Positions 15,614 through 56,933 of a DNA stretch of 64,000 bases are shown here, one piece after another. The notes beneath the pieces were generated by a model. The model worked only from the letters and a program-made list of their open reading frames with translations. It made no database searches and was not told where the DNA came from. The stretch's first letter is position 1, and each line of letters opens with the position of its first letter. The position numbers and the translations under genes are program-made. Source of the stretch: Lachnospiraceae bacterium (GTDB lineage Bacteria > Bacillota > Clostridia > Lachnospirales > Lachnospiraceae); NCBI GenBank assembly GCA_014804615.1, contig JAAUZL010000024.1, positions 288,809 through 352,808 on the forward strand. Direction: 5' to 3'.

Positions 15614-15638
15614 CTTTTCTCCATCCCTCTTCCGTATC

Positions 15639-16631
15639 TCATGGAACAATCTCCTCTCCCCGCATATCCCGTATCATCACCTCGTTGAACTTCATCATGC
15701 AGATTCCTTCTTCATAATTCCCGATCCGCACCTCATTCTCCTGCCCGGCAAGGTTCTGTACCACTGCAGCCGGCATATTCACGCCGCAGCCGTAAGCATG
15801 GGGGTAGCCCCCGCCGAACCGGGGATTCACCTCAGAAATATAATAAGTACCGTCGATCTGGAAAATATCAATATCTATCATGCCGCGGAAACCGCAGTCC
15901 TCCGCAAATTTCCGGATGATCTCAAAAAGCTTGCCATCCTTATAGGACACAGATTTATCCGTCTCTCCCGCCCGCATCTTGATCTTCTTTTTGACGAAGA
16001 TATCTGTGCATTTTCCGGAAATCATGTCCACATACACATCCGCGCCAAATTCCTGCCCGTCCATGTACTCCTGGATCATCAGATCATCATAGATATCACA
16101 CAGCACCTCTATCTCCTTTTTACTCTCCACTTTATTGATGTGAATGCTGGCGCTGCCCCGCACAGGCTTCACAAAGACAGGATAGGATATCTCTCCCTGC
16201 TCCTGCGCACGGTAAAAAGACTCCTTGTCCGCATAGCATTTTGCAGTCGGTATCTGCATTTTACAAAGCATCTCAAACATTCTGTACTTGTCAAAACAGG
16301 TCTCTACTATATCATAATCGGAAACAATGGGAGTAGTCCCCACCGCAAGGAACTTCTCACTCTCCTTTGCCAGAAGAGACAGCTCCGGATCGATCAAGGA
16401 AAAAACGCCTGTTATTTTTTCTTTCTTACAAATGTCCAATATCACGTCCAGATAATCCGGCGCCGTGATCCGCGGCACCAGATAAAAGGCATCCGCCTCG
16501 TACACTGCAGGAGCCAGATTAGAGCAGTCCGTGGCAATGACTCGTCCCCTTCCCGCAAGCTCCTTCTTAAAATACTGCACCACCTTGTCGCGGGTGCCCG
16601 CGCTTAAAATCAGGATATTCATGTCTGTCAC
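15639..16631 (-). CDS. ATP-grasp family protein (carbamoyl-phosphate-synthase-like)
   Basis: YPVFVKPVRGSASI; MIDIDIFQIDGTYYISEVNPRFGGGYPHAYGCG. Confidence 0.85.
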   Translation of the reverse strand: MTDMNILILSAGTRDKVVQYFKKELAGRGRVIATDCSNLAPAVYEADAFYLVPRITAPDYLDVILDICKKEKITGVFSLIDPELSLLAKESEKFLAVGTTPIVSDYDIVETCFDKYRMFEMLCKMQIPTAKCYADKESFYRAQEQGEISYPVFVKPVRGSASIHINKVESKKEIEVLCDIYDDLMIQEYMDGQEFGADVYVDMISGKCTDIFVKKKIKMRAGETDKSVSYKDGKLFEIIRKFAEDCGFRGMIDIDIFQIDGTYYISEVNPRFGGGYPHAYGCGVNMPAAVVQNLAGQENEVRIGNYEEGICMMKFNEVMIRDMRGEEIVP

Positions 16632-47062: not shown

Positions 47063-47357
47063 ACATTTCCCTTTCTGATGATTCGCCGCCTTCATACAAT
47101 ACAGGCATAAGGTCTAACCGTCTGCTCTCTCACACGTTGCTACGGAGCATTTGTCTATATCACAAGCCATGATAAAATGAGGATTTTTATTCATATTATC
47201 CTCAATATCAGCTTATTTTTCTGGTTATTAAAATTTTAGAAGCATTTTAGAAACACGATCTTGGATACTCTTGAGTAAATCTTGTTTAATTTGAAACAAA
47301 TTTATTCAAACTATTGTTTCAATACCCAATATGAATCTTGCTGATTAGTTGAGTATC

Positions 47358-47487
47358 AAACCAACCCTTAAACCAATTGTTAAACCAATTGTTATTTTAT
47401 TAATATTGGTTTAATCCCGAAAAAGGCTAATTACAAGCCTCTCAACATTTTTAAGATATCATTATCAAACCAATTCTTAAACCAATT
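47358..47487. repeat. Cluster of AAACCAAtt motifs at 12-nt spacing
   Basis: Starts at 47358, 47370, 47382 and 47467, 47479; one inverted copy near 47405-47412. Confidence 0.6.
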
Positions 47488-47491
47488 TTAC

Positions 47492-49213
47492 TTAATCATT
47501 CTGCTTGTCTTTGACTAAAACCCAATGGGAAATTTGTTTGTTATCAGAATCCGTGGTTATAATCCCCTTTCTCTTAAGCGCTGTAAGCAATGTTAAAACT
47601 TTTCGCTCCTTCTGACTGGAAGAAAGCGTATCTGGAAACTTGCCAACCAGCAAATCACGTATTGCAGCCTTATTTGCTTTTCCGAATTCTTCAAGATAAT
47701 TAACAATCATATCTTGATAGTATTTGTTGTCAAACGCCTTATTTTTTATATACTGTGCTTTATCCTCCGCCGTTTTTGCCAGAGGAGCTGCCAAATACAA
47801 GTTATTTACTCGCCCCTCCACCAACTTGTGCTTCCTTAAATGTGCTGTTGCTTCCCTAGAAATTGGTTTTCCTTTTTGCACCTGATCCAGCAAATAGACA
47901 GTCATCAAATTAAGATCCTCATTATCATGGAGCAAGTAAGTAAACTTCTCGTTTATCTCTTTCCCATAAATTGACACCTTAACTCTGTCATTTGACGTAA
48001 TGTCATAGTCTGGCAACGGAAAGAACTTCTCCCGCTGAATGTGAAATACTCGCCGGATTCCCGTTGTCTCTGTATCTATCATCTTAAACATCACCATCGC
48101 TTCTGCCAAAAGCTGATTACGATAGAACGGAGATGTATATCCGGGGTTCAAAATAGGTTCTATACTTTCTGGAATGAAGCTCCCCGGATTTGTAAGAATC
48201 AATTCATCTTCAAATTCATTGACATAGATTCGCCCACCTAAATTATAATTAGAATGAGCAATACAATTATTGAGCAATTCCCTCAATACCCATGTATCAT
48301 ATTGCTTGGTTTCCATTGGGAATAATGTCATTTGATCCGGCATATACCTATATGTGAGGTTTCGGATATTTCCCAGAATCCTGTCACTAAGTGTAATAAA
48401 AGGTATCTTGAATATCTTATAATCTTTTACCATCTCCTTTGAATCATAAATACGCCATGAAGCCTCCGGCACGCTCTCAAACAGATAATCATATGCGGAA
48501 TTCCCCAGTAGCAGCATTGCTGCATTTGTAACCTTGCCATTGACAACCAGCTTCCTTCTCTCCAGAAACTCCTCGTCCGTCATTTGATCCACTTCATCAG
48601 AAATATGCTGTTCATCCATCTTTTCCTTATACTTATTTCTTGCAATAGCAATGGCATCTGCATCCAAATGCTCAATTGTGGCATTAGGTATAAATCTCTT
48701 CGACCAATCCAACCTTACCTGCCGCCGAATGCGTTCTCGTTTTTCTTCCGATAATGGTACAAGCGATTCTCCGTCACGACCATATTCCTGATTATGCCAT
48801 CCTGTTGGAATAGCAGTTATAGCTGCTGGTATTTGAAACATTATCACTCGTTTTTCATTTCCATCTACTATCGGGAAAATCTCGTAAATATCAATAAACG
48901 AAATACCACCTGTAGTAGCAGAACCAATTTCATGTTTTAAAGTGTCCAGACCATTACTGTTTCTATACTCAGTCCCCACAATCTTTCGTTTCTTATTATT
49001 TACTCCAAATACAAGCCAGCCATATTGCAGACCACGTAAATTGGCTTCATTACTTAACGCAGAGAAATAACGTCCAATCTTGTCCCTGTCATAATCCTTT
49101 CCGGCTTCCTTGAACTCAACCACTTCATCTTCCCAATTATCAATCAAGCTATAAAGCGTGAGGATCATCTCTTCATTTTTTGATTTCTTTAATGACTTAA
49201 TATCCATAATCAA
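47492..49213 (-). CDS. AlbA_2/Schlafen-type putative DNA-binding ATPase (RecG-related family)
   Basis: EVVEFKEAGKDYDRDKIGRYFSALSNEANLRGLQYGWLVFGVNNKKRKIVGTEY; RELLNNCIAHSNY; C-terminal winged-helix-like region. Confidence 0.85.
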   Translation of the reverse strand: MIMDIKSLKKSKNEEMILTLYSLIDNWEDEVVEFKEAGKDYDRDKIGRYFSALSNEANLRGLQYGWLVFGVNNKKRKIVGTEYRNSNGLDTLKHEIGSATTGGISFIDIYEIFPIVDGNEKRVIMFQIPAAITAIPTGWHNQEYGRDGESLVPLSEEKRERIRRQVRLDWSKRFIPNATIEHLDADAIAIARNKYKEKMDEQHISDEVDQMTDEEFLERRKLVVNGKVTNAAMLLLGNSAYDYLFESVPEASWRIYDSKEMVKDYKIFKIPFITLSDRILGNIRNLTYRYMPDQMTLFPMETKQYDTWVLRELLNNCIAHSNYNLGGRIYVNEFEDELILTNPGSFIPESIEPILNPGYTSPFYRNQLLAEAMVMFKMIDTETTGIRRVFHIQREKFFPLPDYDITSNDRVKVSIYGKEINEKFTYLLHDNEDLNLMTVYLLDQVQKGKPISREATAHLRKHKLVEGRVNNLYLAAPLAKTAEDKAQYIKNKAFDNKYYQDMIVNYLEEFGKANKAAIRDLLVGKFPDTLSSSQKERKVLTLLTALKRKGIITTDSDNKQISHWVLVKDKQND

Positions 49214-49260
49214 AACCTCATTTTGATCTTCCTGTCATACCTACCTAAATAGTTTCCCAA

Positions 49261-51123
49261 TTACCCCTCTTTACCCATAGCTCGTTCTGCATCCTCCCGC
49301 TTTATACGATAGTAGGATAAAACCTTTAAAATCTCTAAATCATCTGTTAGATTTTCATAATCAGAAAAATCATTTGTTTCTATAATCGGCTTAGCTATTG
49401 CCAGTTGCGCATCTGTTAAATTTTGAAAACTATTCCACCATTCATCTGTCAAACCAATGCCCTCAAAGTAAAAACGGTATATTATCATAGCCTCCGGCAT
49501 ATAAAGCAATTTCATAAACTCATCTTCATCACTTCCAAACGCTTTACAAAAAAAAGAATATCCCTTTCCCACTTTACCTTTTGTCGAATTAAGTACCGCT
49601 TGGATTGTGCGAATAAACTTTCTGTTCCATTTCTCGCCAATATAATCTCTGTTGCTAAAATAATCAGGATCTTCAATTGGATGATACTTCATTGGAAATG
49701 AGTATATACTAACATTCAATTCCTCACACAAATCCACATTTAGCTTTAACCGCCTATATAGATCCACTGGTTCATCCTTATAATTATATAAAACATAATT
49801 TGATAAACTTGTATGACCAGCCTCTACCGCAGTTCGCACAGCCTTCTTATAAATATCATGCAGTTCCCAATGGTCAAATGCAATTCGCACTGGTCTAATA
49901 GGAATTTCAAACAGTTTTCTCATATTTGTATCAATAATTAATCTAGCATCAATCCCTTGATTAAAATCAACAAAACGTCTTCTCGGTCGCTTTTTACTAT
50001 ACATTTCTTCAAAATATGGTTTAACAACTTCATATGTTTCTAAAATAGCTTCTTTTTTCGCCGTATAATCCTTTAACAAATGCTTTTTTTCCAACAAATC
50101 ATATACATCTTGCAACTTAGAACCATATTTCGAAATCAGTATCTGATACTGCCGCACTACTGTTTTTATATAAGCTTTTTCATTGTAGCCATTTTTAATA
50201 TTTTCTACTGCAACTTCAAACATATTTGGCTCTACAAAAACACTATCATTTGTAAATCCTGCTTTTTTAATCTCATCAATGATTTTGTCAAATTGACATG
50301 AAGCAAGGACATTATTATCCAATAGCAATAAATCCTTTTTCCCGCCAAATTGCTTACTTGCCCAGTCTACTTGCTCCGCAATTGGTAAATAGTTTTTATA
50401 TTCCGGTTCAAGTTTAGGAACAGCACAAAAAGCACAATGATTGACACACCCTCTGGTCATATATGCCAAATATCCATCATGAGCGGGATATACATAATCA
50501 ATTTCTTCCAAAATCGAATAATCCAACGGCAACGTATCGATTATTATATCATTATCGTCTAAAACCCCTGCATAACTTAATGTTCCAGCAAACGGCTTGA
50601 TTCCCGTAGCTTCATAAACTCTATCTTGAAGAATGGTTGCCATAACCCCGCCAACCATAACATCCTTTTGATCCTTGCACAATTTTTTTACAAAATTAAT
50701 TGTATCAATCGTAATATCCCAATAGAATGTAAATAATGTTGTAATTCCTACACGATCATAAATCCTGTTTTCAGGCAAAAAATACTCTTCATTATGAAAA
50801 TACCTTCGATAATATTTAAATAATTCCAAAATAATAATATTCTCATTCACTAAAGGAATCTCTAATAAAACAGCTTTTGTTCCTCTTTTTAAATATTGAC
50901 AAATCTGAGGTTTATATTGCTCCCAAAAAACACTATCATCATTAGAATACAATTGCTTCAATAACGCCTCATATGTATCGTTTAAAACCAATTCTTTAAG
51001 ATTACCCTTAAAAAAAGTTACATCATCTCCAAGTTCTCGATAATATGTTGCAATCTTCATAAGTCCCATTGGCGGATACTTATTTTTATAATTTGGTTCA
51101 ACAAGCAAAACCTTTCTACTCAT
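49261..51123 (-). CDS. Radical SAM protein with B12-binding-like N-terminal fold
   Basis: KVLLVEPNYKNKYPPMGLMKIATYYRELGDDV; YMTRGCVNHCAFCAVPKLEP (CxxxCxxC); VDFNQGIDARLI. Confidence 0.85.
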   Translation of the reverse strand: MSRKVLLVEPNYKNKYPPMGLMKIATYYRELGDDVTFFKGNLKELVLNDTYEALLKQLYSNDDSVFWEQYKPQICQYLKRGTKAVLLEIPLVNENIIILELFKYYRRYFHNEEYFLPENRIYDRVGITTLFTFYWDITIDTINFVKKLCKDQKDVMVGGVMATILQDRVYEATGIKPFAGTLSYAGVLDDNDIIIDTLPLDYSILEEIDYVYPAHDGYLAYMTRGCVNHCAFCAVPKLEPEYKNYLPIAEQVDWASKQFGGKKDLLLLDNNVLASCQFDKIIDEIKKAGFTNDSVFVEPNMFEVAVENIKNGYNEKAYIKTVVRQYQILISKYGSKLQDVYDLLEKKHLLKDYTAKKEAILETYEVVKPYFEEMYSKKRPRRRFVDFNQGIDARLIIDTNMRKLFEIPIRPVRIAFDHWELHDIYKKAVRTAVEAGHTSLSNYVLYNYKDEPVDLYRRLKLNVDLCEELNVSIYSFPMKYHPIEDPDYFSNRDYIGEKWNRKFIRTIQAVLNSTKGKVGKGYSFFCKAFGSDEDEFMKLLYMPEAMIIYRFYFEGIGLTDEWWNSFQNLTDAQLAIAKPIIETNDFSDYENLTDDLEILKVLSYYRIKREDAERAMGKEG

Positions 51124-52692
51124 TTATTTACTCAACTCTTCCTGTATTTTCTTTATAACCATTTCTGCCATATCTTTGGGAAGTATTGATTTAATAATCG
51201 CATAAATACGAGCAATCAATTTCTGCTCTTTCTTTCCATACTTAGATAATGACTGAGTTAAATACTTATTATTTTTTTCAGGGGATTCGTTTTCTTCTTT
51301 TTTTATTTCTTCCTGTTTTTCCGTTTCATCTTTACTTTTATATGTCTTTTCTATTTCAGTAAACACTCTGGCATACACTTCATTAGAATCAGCATCTTTT
51401 TTACGATTTTCAATCTCTCGCTTTGCTTTTTCTGCTTTTTCGCGTTCTTGTTCAATCTCTTTTTTTACATTTTCTTTCTCATTGTTGTCAATAAATCCTG
51501 CATTATTTACTTTCTCTTGATATTCTTTCTCTTTTTCCGTAAAATTAGCAATCGACTTCTGTGCACTCCGAACCTTACTTGCATAATGATAAAGATCATA
51601 TAACTCTAAATAGAAGAAATTATGTACTATGTCCTCAAACTCTTTAAGCGCAGGTGTCGGATTAAAATAATCTCTCCTTGCATTCGGAATCAACCGATTA
51701 TCCAGCACAAATAATTCCCCTATAAAATAGCCGTTTCCACGTGATTCCTTAAAATATTTGGGATATCCAAGTGTATTCTCATCCCCAATTTGTATATTTT
51801 CTTTACGCAACCGAATACACCTCATGTCATTAATTACTGGAATATATTTTTCATATTTCGCAATCCCATACCACAACCATGCAACGGGAGTACCATCACT
51901 TGCCAAAAATTTTTTAAATTCTACATCATATATTTCATCATACTGCTTTTTGTTCTCAGCAGTTCCTTCACATAATCCCATTCTATATGGTTTAAATAGC
52001 TGATTTCCATTTACCAAAACTGTATATTCATCTATTTTAAAGCCTTCGTTCTTCGCAAACTCATATATTTTCTCATAAAAACTGAAATAATTAGCATATG
52101 GCACTGGCGCAACTGACTGAAGATAATTAATAACCTGTTCTGCATCAAGAAGATCATCACTTTCAAAAATAACATCTTCCATAACCACTTCAAAAAAATG
52201 GTCTTCTTTCTTGGCATCAATATACGAAACATCTGTAATCATATCTATTAATTCATCTGATGATGGATGCAACCTCGGATCTGCGACTATCTCTTTCAAA
52301 CGAACTCCATCCCATTTAATAATTGATTCTTTATCTTCTCCTTTTACAGAGGTTCTGAAAACCAAAGTATCACAGTATCCCAAACCTGCCAGTCTACCAA
52401 TTCCTCGAAAGCCTTTATCTGTATTTCTATCTTTTTCAGAATCAGCCACATCCGTCATTTTTTTCTTAAAATCTCTCATAGGAATTCCCATAGCATTATC
52501 GTGAACGGATATTTTTCTTTTATTATACTCAATAGCTATGTCTATACTAGCTTCTTCTTTATCCAACAATCCTTTTTCAATGGCTTTATCTATAGAATCG
52601 GCAGCATTTTGAACAAACTCGCGATAAACAGTAAAGCTATTTTCATACATTGCAACTGTTAAATTTTCTAAAAAATTTTTTCCTACTGCCAT
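51124..52692 (-). CDS. HSP90-like GHKL ATPase
   Basis: YREFVQNAADSIDKA (N box); VHDNAMGIPM (G1); GFRGIGRLAGLGYCD (G2); charged coiled-coil C-terminal region. Confidence 0.85.
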   Translation of the reverse strand: MAVGKNFLENLTVAMYENSFTVYREFVQNAADSIDKAIEKGLLDKEEASIDIAIEYNKRKISVHDNAMGIPMRDFKKKMTDVADSEKDRNTDKGFRGIGRLAGLGYCDTLVFRTSVKGEDKESIIKWDGVRLKEIVADPRLHPSSDELIDMITDVSYIDAKKEDHFFEVVMEDVIFESDDLLDAEQVINYLQSVAPVPYANYFSFYEKIYEFAKNEGFKIDEYTVLVNGNQLFKPYRMGLCEGTAENKKQYDEIYDVEFKKFLASDGTPVAWLWYGIAKYEKYIPVINDMRCIRLRKENIQIGDENTLGYPKYFKESRGNGYFIGELFVLDNRLIPNARRDYFNPTPALKEFEDIVHNFFYLELYDLYHYASKVRSAQKSIANFTEKEKEYQEKVNNAGFIDNNEKENVKKEIEQEREKAEKAKREIENRKKDADSNEVYARVFTEIEKTYKSKDETEKQEEIKKEENESPEKNNKYLTQSLSKYGKKEQKLIARIYAIIKSILPKDMAEMVIKKIQEELSK

Positions 52693-52707
52693 ATAGCACC
52701 TCGTTTA

Positions 52708-54378
52708 CTATTTATATTGTTTATATATTGGTTTTGGAAATTTGATATTCAACAATGACCGAAACACGGGATTCTGAACAATGTATTCACCCTGTTTCAG
52801 TCTTGTCATCATATTTTTATACACTTGCGGAACATATTTGTAATCCGCTTTTGCAATTTCTATTGCATTAGTCCTTCCATATGCATGTGTTGAACAATTA
52901 CCCGTTACTCTGTTATGAATTGCACTCCTAAACTGCTCCGCTGAAAAAAGTATGATTCCAAGAGAACGCCCTCTTTCAGCAATATCTAATATTTGGCGTA
53001 ATATAGGCGAACTCTTTGGTGTATCTGTTGATGCATACTTATTTAACTCATCAATGAAAATAACAATCTTCTTTGGCGGATTCAGCGTATCATCATCGCT
53101 AAATTGTCCTAACTGCAAATCATAGATTGTACGAATAGCATCACCAAATACAAAGCCTTGCATATCTTCATTCAATTTAGCAATGTCAATTACATGGACT
53201 TCGTTCTTTTTAATATGTTTTAAAGCCTCCCCTATGCGCACTTCTTCTTTAGTATTATGGATATTACCAAATATTTCATTTCGGTAAATTGACTTACGAA
53301 TAATTCTATTAAACTTTCTCCAGCTTGCGACCGTTATTTCTTTATCCCCACTAGATCCTGCTTTGCAATTATTTTGTACCTCATCAAGAAAATCCTCCCA
53401 GTCTTCCAAACCGCCAAATTTCCCTTGATTTGTAATAATATAGTTAATTATAGAATCCATAGTCTGCTGCGGATCATCCATACTTGCAAACATTAAATCC
53501 AAATTGTCCTTGTCATCTTCGTATGTATATTTATAAAGATGTGCTTTCCCTAACTTCTTTTGATTGTCATATGCTTCTTTACTCAAGTATGTATTTCCAA
53601 CTTTGTTTGATGAATATGGATAATAATATTGAACATTTCTAAACGGTTCTGTACTCATTCCAAGCTTCTTATATAAATCAAATGTGTCCTTTCTTTCACT
53701 CGCTGTTTCAAAATCACCCTCCTCGTCAAGAGCTAACAAATCACTCCCTTTCACATTAAACAGCACAAAAGCGACCTCTTCATCTTCTTCATTCCCATTT
53801 ATTAAACACTTATCCTGAATAGCTTTCAACAGAAACATCGCATAAGAAGTTTTTGCAGCCAATCCTGATATCCCCGATATATTTAAATGCGCTCCCTCTG
53901 GTCCAATTAGAAATCTTGAATCCATTTGAACAGGTAATGTGATTTTATCTTCATCTCCTGTATACATTTCAAGATATCCACATGTAACAGGATTTTTGAC
54001 ATTATTCAATCCTAATGCCTCAGAAACCTCATTTTCATCAGCCAGCTCAACTTTTGAGTTGTTTGCTAGTGGTATGTATATATTTCCTGTATTTCCAATC
54101 ACTCTTGCCTTTACATAATTCATTCCTATTCGATGTGTATTCTCGTCTGCCTCAACGTTTCCAAAATCATTAGAAACATAATCTGCCAAAAAATTAGCAG
54201 TATCCGTAATATGTGATATTTCTTCAATAACTCCATATGAAACACTTTTTTGAAGATGACTCACCTTCACAACATCAAACGGATTTAAAATCAGATCCTG
54301 CCTTGTCCAAAAATAAAAATCATCAATTGTAGATGGATTTTTTTCTGTTGCGATAACCTTACCTATTACTCTACCCAT
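52708..54378 (-). CDS. HerA-like (FtsK/HerA superfamily) ATPase
   Basis: GISGLAAKTSYAMFLLKA (variant P-loop); KKIVIFIDELNKYAS (Walker B); ERGRSLGIILFSAEQFRSAIHNRVTGNCSTHAYGR. Confidence 0.82.
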   Translation of the reverse strand: MGRVIGKVIATEKNPSTIDDFYFWTRQDLILNPFDVVKVSHLQKSVSYGVIEEISHITDTANFLADYVSNDFGNVEADENTHRIGMNYVKARVIGNTGNIYIPLANNSKVELADENEVSEALGLNNVKNPVTCGYLEMYTGDEDKITLPVQMDSRFLIGPEGAHLNISGISGLAAKTSYAMFLLKAIQDKCLINGNEEDEEVAFVLFNVKGSDLLALDEEGDFETASERKDTFDLYKKLGMSTEPFRNVQYYYPYSSNKVGNTYLSKEAYDNQKKLGKAHLYKYTYEDDKDNLDLMFASMDDPQQTMDSIINYIITNQGKFGGLEDWEDFLDEVQNNCKAGSSGDKEITVASWRKFNRIIRKSIYRNEIFGNIHNTKEEVRIGEALKHIKKNEVHVIDIAKLNEDMQGFVFGDAIRTIYDLQLGQFSDDDTLNPPKKIVIFIDELNKYASTDTPKSSPILRQILDIAERGRSLGIILFSAEQFRSAIHNRVTGNCSTHAYGRTNAIEIAKADYKYVPQVYKNMMTRLKQGEYIVQNPVFRSLLNIKFPKPIYKQYK

Positions 54379-54395
54379 ATATAACAGCCTTTCTG

Positions 54396-55541
54396 TTAAA
54401 ATAAATTTAAAAACATTGTATCACTAAAATATTTACTTTTTGCATAACACTCTGTAACATATACTGGATATAAATGGTTTGCCCATCTTGAATCCGCTCC
54501 ATAACAAACCGGATTACGTTCATTAATAATATTTGCAGAAATTAAATCTACTTCTTCCGTATCCAACCCCTTATTCATTTGTTCTTCAGTAACCAAGATT
54601 TTCTCAATCTTTAAAATACCATCAAATGCATTAGCCGTATACTTTTTATCTCTAATTCGCAAATACCATACTGCATATTTCATTCCTTCAAGTCTCGGTG
54701 AAGAATACAAACTTACTGGTGTTCTATGATATAATTTCAAATCAGCTATCATATCTGAGTTGTTCTTTTTCTTTTTATCTTTACAATTCTCAGGATTAAA
54801 CGATTTTGATACGCCAACCACATAGCTAAAATTCTTTTGAAATTTGCGTTTTTCCCTCTCATTTTTTATATGGTCAACACGATATTCCAATGAACCATCT
54901 TTCATAAGATAATGTGTTGAATTAATTCTATTCTCTGAGACCAGCTTTGTTACCATGTCAATTTCACGTTGAATCATCAAATCCTGTATTACTGCAATTC
55001 CTTTGCTTTCAATTCTTTCAAATTCATCAACTTTTGTGTTGTAAGGTAAAATTTCTGTAAACTGTATATTATGATGTTTTAATCTGGAATTTTCATTTAA
55101 TTTGCTGCACAAATTTGAAAAATACACTGTTTTATTCCAATCACTTTGACTCGCTACTTTGGGTAGGGCAATTGCCAATCTTCTATCAAAATCATATTTC
55201 TGCATTTCTTTATTAACACGTTTGCAGCAACTTACTCCAACTTGTCCAGCAATTACAGGATATACCTTATTTTTATAAGCAATATCGTCTACTTTATATG
55301 TATGGCGTGAGCCATCCAAGAAATATGTAAACAATGGGTTCCCATTCCGACACTGGTCTGCCTTTCTCAACATACTAATCGCTTTATCTGGAGGAAGTGT
55401 TTCACCATATTTTTCCCATGTAATTTCCTGATGGTCATCATAGTCAAAAGAAAGTATTTCAGAACCTTCACATATATATTTATATGTTCTATAGCTCTTT
55501 CCTCCTGTTTCATGAGCAATAATATCCATTATACTATCCAA
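54396..55541 (-). CDS. NurA-like nuclease domain protein, TTG start
   Basis: FLDGSRHTYKVDD and MKDGSLEYRVDH...FSYVVGVSKSF resemble NurA motifs; directly 5' of the HerA-like gene; AAGGAGAGG RBS upstream of TTG. Confidence 0.65.
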   Translation of the reverse strand: MDSIMDIIAHETGGKSYRTYKYICEGSEILSFDYDDHQEITWEKYGETLPPDKAISMLRKADQCRNGNPLFTYFLDGSRHTYKVDDIAYKNKVYPVIAGQVGVSCCKRVNKEMQKYDFDRRLAIALPKVASQSDWNKTVYFSNLCSKLNENSRLKHHNIQFTEILPYNTKVDEFERIESKGIAVIQDLMIQREIDMVTKLVSENRINSTHYLMKDGSLEYRVDHIKNEREKRKFQKNFSYVVGVSKSFNPENCKDKKKKNNSDMIADLKLYHRTPVSLYSSPRLEGMKYAVWYLRIRDKKYTANAFDGILKIEKILVTEEQMNKGLDTEEVDLISANIINERNPVCYGADSRWANHLYPVYVTECYAKSKYFSDTMFLNLF

Positions 55542-55544
55542 TAG

Positions 55545-55733
55545 CTACACCCTCTCCTTAAAATCTATCGTACATATATCACTCAATTGACATGCAAGCA
55601 CCCTGCACAACCGAACCAATACATCAAGTGATGCCATTTCATTTTTTGTAAGTTTTGCAAATATACTCGTACTAAGCCTTGCTGCTATCCTTAATTACGT
55701 TTTTGTTAATTTTTTTCTTTCATCATTTTCCAT
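55545..55733 (-). pseudogene. Decayed XRE (Cro/CI) helix-turn-helix regulator
   Basis: Reverse complement: MENDERKKLTKT*LRIAARLSTSIFAKLTKNEMASLDVLVRLCRVLACQLSDICTIDFKERV*; stop at 55695-55697; upstream FDCLWKMMKEKN in another frame. Confidence 0.75.
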
Positions 55734-55904
55734 AAGCAATCGAATTTATCATGTACACTATTCTCCTAACCAAATATATACATGAATATTTTACCATCAG
55801 AATATACCATTTTCAACAAACGCTTTCGTTTTCTCGAAACATTAAACCATAAAATTGCATAAAACCCACAAATGGGACAGATACCCTCTGCCCCATTCTA
55901 ATCC

Positions 55905-56180
55905 TCATAATGTATATATAATTTCCTCCCTCACAATCTCCTCCGCTCTCGCCCAAATATTATTCATTTTCCTAAAAATCCCAAAGTTTGGATTTTATAC
56001 CCAAAGCATCTGATCCTATTCCTTTAACTGTTCTGTCTCTTTCTCCTACATTGCCATCTGCTCTATAAGCAAATCAAATCTTTCCTCTGCTTGTTCCTGT
56101 ATCAAAAGCAGATGTTTCTTTAATTCCCTTGATAGCAGCAATCCCGAATAAATACCTCTCCTGTGATTTTCCAAATATGA
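55905..56180 (-). pseudogene. TnpV-like transposon protein remnant with in-frame stops
   Basis: Reverse complement: SYLENHRRGIYSGLLLSRELKKHLLLIQEQAEERFDLLIEQMAM*EKETEQLKE*DQMLWV*NPNFGIFRKMNNIWARAEEIVREEIIYTL*. Confidence 0.8.
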
Positions 56181-56933
56181 TTACTTGATGATAGTAGCGG
56201 CCCTGCCAGATTCAACTGTTCTACCACCCTCACACGCTTTCCGCATCATTCGGTATTTTATCTCCGCCAGTTCCCAGTCCGACGGATTGTCGATATCCTG
56301 CACCTCCGTCTCCGGCACAATGATGGGCAGATACCCGTCCGGCAGATCCCCTCTGCAGGCGCGGTAACGCGTCACGTGATAACAGTAAAACTGTCCGCTG
56401 TCGTGATACATGGGCTCCAGATCCTGAGACCGTTTCATGGCATTTTCGGGATAGCAGTACGCAAGTTTTCCCTCGCGGATTGCCATACCCCGCTGGGGCG
56501 GAAAGGAGAACCGCACCACGGGCATTACTCCTGAAGCATCCTTCTCTATCAGAAGGGACATAGCCTCCTGCAGTTTCCCCGCTGTCACAAAGGGCGCGGT
56601 GGGATAGATACAGGCCATATAGTCAAAAAGCTCACCACGTTTTTCGTAGGTTTCCAGCACTTCCATCAGCACATCGTCCGTGGTGGCAAAGTCTCCCGAC
56701 GTGGCCTCACTTCTCATAAAGGGCACCACCGCCCCTGCCTCACGCGCGATCCGCGCGATCCCCTCATCATCGGTGGACACCATGACCTCCCGGAAAATGC
56801 CCGCCTCCAGTGCCGCCTCGATGGCATAAGTAAGCATGGGCTTTCCCATAAACTCTTTCACATTCTTTCCCGGGATACGCTTACTACCGCCCCGCGCCGT
56901 AATAATCGCTATTGCATTCATCGTTCCCTCCAA
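56181..56933 (-). CDS. pseF: Pseudaminic acid cytidylyltransferase
   Basis: AIITARGGSKRIPGKNVKEFMGKPMLTYAIEAAL; VQDIDNPSDWELAEIKY. Confidence 0.9.
   Translation of the reverse strand: MEGTMNAIAIITARGGSKRIPGKNVKEFMGKPMLTYAIEAALEAGIFREVMVSTDDEGIARIAREAGAVVPFMRSEATSGDFATTDDVLMEVLETYEKRGELFDYMACIYPTAPFVTAGKLQEAMSLLIEKDASGVMPVVRFSFPPQRGMAIREGKLAYCYPENAMKRSQDLEPMYHDSGQFYCYHVTRYRACRGDLPDGYLPIIVPETEVQDIDNPSDWELAEIKYRMMRKACEGGRTVESGRAATIIK

Follow-up and report, generated by a model that had tools for sequence, protein, structure and literature searches.

What task is carried out by an operon that joins genes for a NurA-like nuclease, a HerA-like ATPase, a GHKL ATPase and a radical S-adenosylmethionine (SAM) enzyme (rSAM)? 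Such a quartet lies in a 64,000-nucleotide stretch of Lachnospiraceae DNA (contig JAAUZL010000024.1), which as a whole is called the window here. An earlier reading, made from the sequence only, had described it as a tight operon in an AT-rich island and as a candidate defence or DNA-processing system. All four genes are on the minus strand: NurA (54396..55541; 381 amino acids (aa), TTG start), HerA (52708..54378; 556 aa), GHKL (51124..52692; 522 aa, with a charged C-terminal region) and rSAM (49261..51123; 620 aa, with a B12-binding-like N-terminal domain). Open reading frame calls bore out the coordinates and the spacing of this description, with gaps of 17 nt between NurA and HerA, 15 nt between HerA and GHKL, and 0 nt between GHKL and rSAM. 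The AT-rich setting was confirmed as well: GC content is 0.32-0.34 over the operon as compared to ~0.50 in the surrounding DNA, and the island is missing from a relative of the same genus.

The quartet is a conserved, horizontally spread four-gene system. Scanning the GTDB species set with the rSAM protein yielded at least 569 relatives, and 80 of these loci were analysed. The order NurA, HerA, GHKL, rSAM was kept in 64 of the 80, strictly contiguous in 58, and the median gaps across the rSAM loci were 8.5, 10 and -1 nt. Because 64 of 80 loci in other genomes keep all four genes in the same order, the arrangement at the window locus is far beyond chance. In this species set, the quartet was found in Bacillota, Bacteroidota, Planctomycetota, Synergistota, Deferribacterota and Cloacimonadota, and also in Aminicenantes, Ignavibacteria, Victivallaceae, Kiritimatiellae, Gastranaerophilales and the archaeal Methanomicrobiales. 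Its range covers at least 10 bacterial phylum-level groups and archaea, and an archaeal phylum sample held two further cases (L245 and L246). The neighbourhood check thus established co-occurrence of the four genes in unrelated genomes, on which the sequence-only reading had depended.

Within these groups the system is patchy. Some rSAM match was present in 21 of the 397 genomes of the family sample, about a dozen of them clear relatives. The same operon recurs in most members of this dozen for which sufficient sequence exists. HerA relatives were found in 12/399, 5/299, 3/249 and 2/249 genomes (~1-3%). In the HerA tree, one archaeal and one planctomycete sequence were nested among Bacillota, which fits horizontal transfer. 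A search of viral contigs with the single HerA protein gave no match, and the HerA alignment gave five loci; the quartet system occurs on the viral or prophage contigs L148, L149, L165 and L169. In three Bacteroidota loci (L100:6257-8442, L242 and L243), extra genes of ~460 aa and ~270-295 aa stand between HerA and rSAM, the ~460-aa gene of L100 being an AAA_15 ATPase.

Profiles of the quartet proteins were built from alignments of 29-30 relatives. As judged by these profiles and a fold model of NurA, the first two proteins are genuine NurA and HerA, matching the Deinococcus NurA-HerA complex (PDB 7f6d). The AlphaFold2 (AF2) model of NurA (predicted local distance difference test (pLDDT) 86) matched in Foldseek NurA of D. 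radiodurans (7f6d, 7.9e-12) and S. solfataricus (2ygk, 1.5e-8); the third confident PDB neighbour was the TdpAB chain 8wfd_G (2.6e-5), and there were no further confident ones. The NurA profile matched 7f6d NurA with E 0.011, the FLDGSR motif is conserved, and the active-site motif DGS was present in 66 of 66 relatives, so that fold and motif are those of a NurA nuclease. The HerA profile matched D. radiodurans HerA (7f6d) with E 3.5e-50. Its P-loop is a variant, GxxGLAxKTS (69 of 71 relatives), and its Walker B motif is FIDELNK (70 of 71); P-loop, Walker B and homology place the protein among the HerA/FtsK ATPases, and it is predicted to be a HerA-family hexameric translocase ATPase. PADLOC gave weak matches for the HerA protein (mad8, 3.8e-7; HerA, 3.8e-4), and no accepted Pfam or NCBIfam family covers the NurA or HerA gene.

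The third protein matched Pfam HATPase_c_3 (4.4e-10) and, by profile, HtpG (3e-11). It has the conserved motifs ExxQNxxD, DNAxG and GFRGIGRL, with the strict motif pair in 63 of 77 relatives; by these Bergerat-fold motifs and the profile match, it is an HtpG/Hsp90-like GHKL ATPase. For the single rSAM sequence, the Pfam Radical_SAM match (7.4e-6) scored 26.7, just under the cut-off of 29.5, and the B12-binding match (0.021) was also below cut-off; the rSAM profile found no match among PDB sequences. Its AF2 model (pLDDT 93.4) matched TsrM (6wte, 1.6e-7), MiaB (7mjw, 8.6e-7) and AprD4 (6fd2, 2.2e-5). The best of these, TsrM, is a B12-dependent radical SAM methyltransferase with a cobalamin-containing structure, and the MiaB structure is that of a tRNA-modifying enzyme bound to RNA. 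The CxxxCxxC motif in 80 of 80 relatives and the barrel fold place the protein in the radical SAM superfamily, and the model suggests that it resembles the B12-type enzyme TsrM. Thus, the identities that the sequence-only reading had given to all four proteins held, NurA and HerA by structure prediction of NurA and the profile matches of both to 7f6d, GHKL by HATPase_c_3 and HtpG, and rSAM by fold and motif. Its analogy with the viperins found no support, since the nearest folds are TsrM, MiaB and AprD4, the N-terminal domain is B12-binding-like, and PADLOC gave no match for the rSAM protein.

A clue to what the GHKL-rSAM pair does comes from a second type of NurA-HerA operon. In a 399-genome phylum sample, all 12 HerA relatives adjoin NurA, followed by GHKL and rSAM in four cases and by methyltransferases in eight; a ninth locus of the methyltransferase type comes from a viral contig (full set L060-L067 and L252). 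These nine loci all encode a type IIG protein with NPPW, seven of them an SPPY methyltransferase too, and none has rSAM or GHKL of the quartet family beside NurA-HerA. Conversely, a search for methyltransferase motifs on the same strand, up to three genes away, gave none in 71 quartet loci, absence being judged by motif (NPPY/SPPY types) and by hidden Markov models (HMMs) of two families. The HerA tree resolves the two types as sisters, with support of 97/95 and 100/97. The methyltransferase-bearing operons therefore resemble that of the window in their sister NurA-HerA clade and similar layout, and differ in having type IIG and SPPY methyltransferases where the window has GHKL and rSAM; we regard them as a separate candidate restriction-modification (R-M)-like system. 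The ~1090-aa partners in L060-L067 were also considered as SMC/Rad50 proteins, which was rejected, as they are type IIG methyltransferases. Just downstream of two of these loci lies a different B12-binding rSAM gene (L060:1930-3537 and L061:15505-17025, of different families).

Because the sister operons carry DNA methyltransferases in that place, GHKL and the putative B12-type rSAM would together form a self-marking module. On these sequence comparisons, we lean towards a horizontally moved, R-M-like defence in which NurA-HerA destroys unmarked DNA and GHKL-rSAM marks self DNA. The parts of this proposal differ in strength: the defence role is well supported by context, the quartet probably destroys foreign DNA, and we infer that the rSAM enzyme modifies DNA. 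NurA and HerA would act together as translocase and nuclease, pulling DNA without the self mark through and degrading it, a family function established elsewhere; GHKL may serve on DNA as a clamp or loader gated by ATP; and rSAM would protect host DNA from HerA-NurA by a non-classical modification, leaving phages and other mobile DNA as the likely targets. A DNA-marking role fits both the enzyme class, a putative B12-type rSAM near the nucleic-acid-modifying MiaB, and the DndB-like neighbours described below. The sequence-only reading had placed a GHKL sensor beside a modifying rSAM; the modifying enzyme is retained here, and the gene swap points to GHKL and rSAM jointly as the self-marking module.

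GHKL and rSAM also keep other company. Two DISARM-like islands (L045/L228, at L045:3375-15999 and L228:1-6704, and L166) carry the pair; L045 encodes DrmA (3.5e-168) and DrmB (6.9e-48), and L166 has homologues. DISARM normally carries a methyltransferase. No methyltransferase motif was found in the sequence of L045/L228 and L166 examined. These islands also encode a NERD-UvrD helicase and a bactofilin-like protein, with a second GHKL in L228, and integrase-like genes flank L045/L228. On alphaproteobacterial plasmids and prophage-like contigs, rSAM and GHKL are accompanied by two ParB-like paralogues and an SNF2 helicase, and frequently by a DGQHR gene; no PADLOC system matched these operons. 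L003, L004, L005, L156, L159-L161, L163 and L164 combine rSAM and GHKL with the SNF2 helicase, both ParB-like paralogues, a ~139-aa protein and, in some cases, DGQHR; L003 and L004 have PIN_8 and a second GHKL in addition. The ParB label was dropped for the partners in L150/L151, which had no Pfam match. A DndB/DpdB-like DGQHR gene adjoins rSAM in L003-L005, L134 and L158, and a DndB-like gene is inserted in a Kiritimatiellae quartet. In the rSAM tree, the NurA-HerA context does not form one group, and at least four changes of nuclease partner are forced.

The simplest account is that GHKL and rSAM do the methyltransferases' job by marking self DNA, and that NurA-HerA, DrmAB or SNF2-type machines attack unmarked DNA. 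Our wider proposal, possible rather than probable, is that the pair is a portable radical-chemistry DNA-marking module, exchangeable with methyltransferases and providing epigenetic self marks of a new class, which would serve at least three destruction machines (NurA-HerA, DISARM-like DrmAB and SNF2/ParB-like) and have relatives in phages.

Several points weigh against self-marking. Foremost, the two HerA types form just one clade each, which makes the exchange between methyltransferases and GHKL-rSAM a single event within NurA-HerA. The motif and HMM screen could have missed a divergent methyltransferase or some other gene for marking, and GHKL proteins could equally be sensors. The DISARM case rests on two loci, of which L166 is cut at its edge. 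PADLOC matches near quartet loci (PDC-S01, PDC-S05, AbiEi, SoFic and mad2) are scattered and come without a background rate, and they were not used as proof of a defence island. A defence without DNA marking would share the same conserved quartet and mobility: GHKL would sense infection (a phage protein or a DNA end), and rSAM would modify a protein or nucleotide, switching on or adding to DNA destruction by NurA-HerA. The defence systems HerA-DUF4297 and Sir2-HerA indeed lack a modification enzyme (PMC11291478, PMC12948488). However, this account leaves unexplained both the mutual exclusion of GHKL-rSAM and methyltransferases beside the same NurA-HerA family and the company of DndB/ParB and DISARM genes, and we consider it rather unlikely.

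A role in DNA repair or end processing, in which NurA-HerA would resect breaks, as has been proposed for archaea and Deinococcus, with GHKL and rSAM as repair helpers, draws on the link between archaeal NurA-HerA and Mre11-Rad50 (PMC2288612), and on distant HerA relatives that adjoin exonuclease/SbcCD and SMC-type genes. In contrast, the quartet has a fixed GHKL-rSAM partner, is patchy and laterally moved, and has methyltransferase-bearing sister operons; moreover, the window operon contains neither mre11 nor rad50. Even for the archaeal complex, a direct part in end resection has been disputed and a defensive role put forward as possible (PMC12977600). We judge the repair reading very improbable.

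Evidence on mobility came from the window island, an AT-rich insertion of 9092 bp (47137..56228). In the same-genus relative (L265), the two flanking glycan genes are joined exactly where the window carries the island. Direct repeats of 8 bp flank it on the left (CTCACACG, 47129..47136, plus strand) and on the right (CTCACACG, 56229..56236, plus strand). The island also bears a copied 3' end of tuf (EF-Tu; EGGRTVESGRAATIIK, 56181..56231, minus strand); insertion of the island into a NeuA-like gene joined this tuf tail to the 3' end of that gene. In another genus (L033), a copy with 90% DNA identity over 6.7 kb occupies a different site, inside the tuf 3' end, with island-associated tuf 3' end sequences at 2499-2552 and 15617-15677; the window copy lacks a 474-aa gene (L033:13752-15176) that belongs to no known family. 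No recombinase was recognised for the island, and an Rfam search over it found no RNA family. The flanking repeats, together with the viral and prophage contigs named above, would suit an element-versus-element or addiction module that guards the island carrying it and not the cell. Yet the system is also chromosomal in many phyla, at different sites, and an R-M-like layout predicts protection at the level of the cell anyway; such a module is, in our view, hardly to be expected.

No PADLOC, NCBIfam or Pfam model names the quartet, and a literature search (the quartet; HerA with GHKL and rSAM; rSAM-based DNA modification), incomplete in coverage, found no description, in line with the sequence-only reading, which had given no named system for it. 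By logic, the nearest known system is Tdp, in which a HerA-like translocase and a NurA-like nuclease are coupled to a DNA-marking enzyme, TdpC, which makes phosphorothioate. The match of the NurA model to chain G of TdpAB (TdpC-TdpAB, 8wfd) agrees with this likeness, whereas the remaining genes of the window operon encode a putative B12-type rSAM and an Hsp90-like ATPase, and no sulfur-transfer family was found among its operon genes. By parts, the nearest are NurA-HerA complexes and HerA-based defence systems. The Deinococcus and archaeal NurA-HerA proteins (7f6d, 2ygk) are homologous by profile and fold and share two of the four genes, but differ in operon partners and in distribution, that of the window system being patchy and mobile. 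HerA-DUF4297 and Sir2-HerA (Nezha) likewise set HerA with a nuclease or effector against phage, but have another effector and no GHKL or rSAM, and the PADLOC HerA match was weak. DISARM shares the rSAM-GHKL pair in the L045 and L166 islands, but the window operon has no DrmA, DrmB, DrmC or methyltransferase. The Dnd and Dpd DNA-modification systems share with several loci the DndB/DpdB-like DGQHR genes beside rSAM, but neither DndACDE nor DpdA is present, and the window locus has no DndB-like gene. MORC and paraMORC proteins are GHKL ATPases of R-M-type operons, proposed to loop DNA (PMC2292703); HerA, NurA and radical SAM are unmentioned there, and by its profile the GHKL protein of the window resembles HtpG.

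The quartet would add a widespread defence system that is absent from PADLOC and NCBIfam. GHKL and rSAM in the place of methyltransferases suggest that cells have a further, new means of marking DNA as self, and there is a fair chance that the marking chemistry is categorically new; if the marking role is true, a DNA modification would be made in cells by a radical SAM enzyme. The methyltransferase exchange also leads to a clear prediction about the substrate, otherwise unknown, of an enzyme family for which a single genome scan gave at least 569 relatives. The claim is directly testable by mass spectrometry of DNA from cultured carriers, which include Alkaliphilus pronyensis, Acetobacterium dehalogenans DSM 11527 and Frisingicoccus caecimuris DSM 28559.

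Relatives of rSAM were also seen elsewhere. L162 and L168 are phage-like viral contigs, and in L168 the neighbours of the gene are another radical SAM gene and a protein weakly similar to RAMP/Cas7. In the phage genome of Marinitoga camini virus 1 (L006), a relative has HerA and NurA genes of opposite orientation as neighbours. In Altiarchaeales (L138), one occurs with another GHKL, an AIR-synthase-like protein, a second rSAM relative and a 332-aa protein that has a similar counterpart in loci of Aminicenantes. Within the window, a fifth co-directional gene of the island lies downstream (47492..49213, minus strand) and encodes AlbA_2 (Schlafen) and HATPase_c_4 domains; as it is present in few loci only, it was rejected as a fifth core member. 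Directly upstream of NurA is the remnant of an XRE-type helix-turn-helix (HTH) regulator gene (approximately 55545..55770, minus strand), broken by a stop codon and a frame break in the window and intact in L033 as an 88-aa HTH_26 gene; small HTH genes of several types fill this position in other loci.

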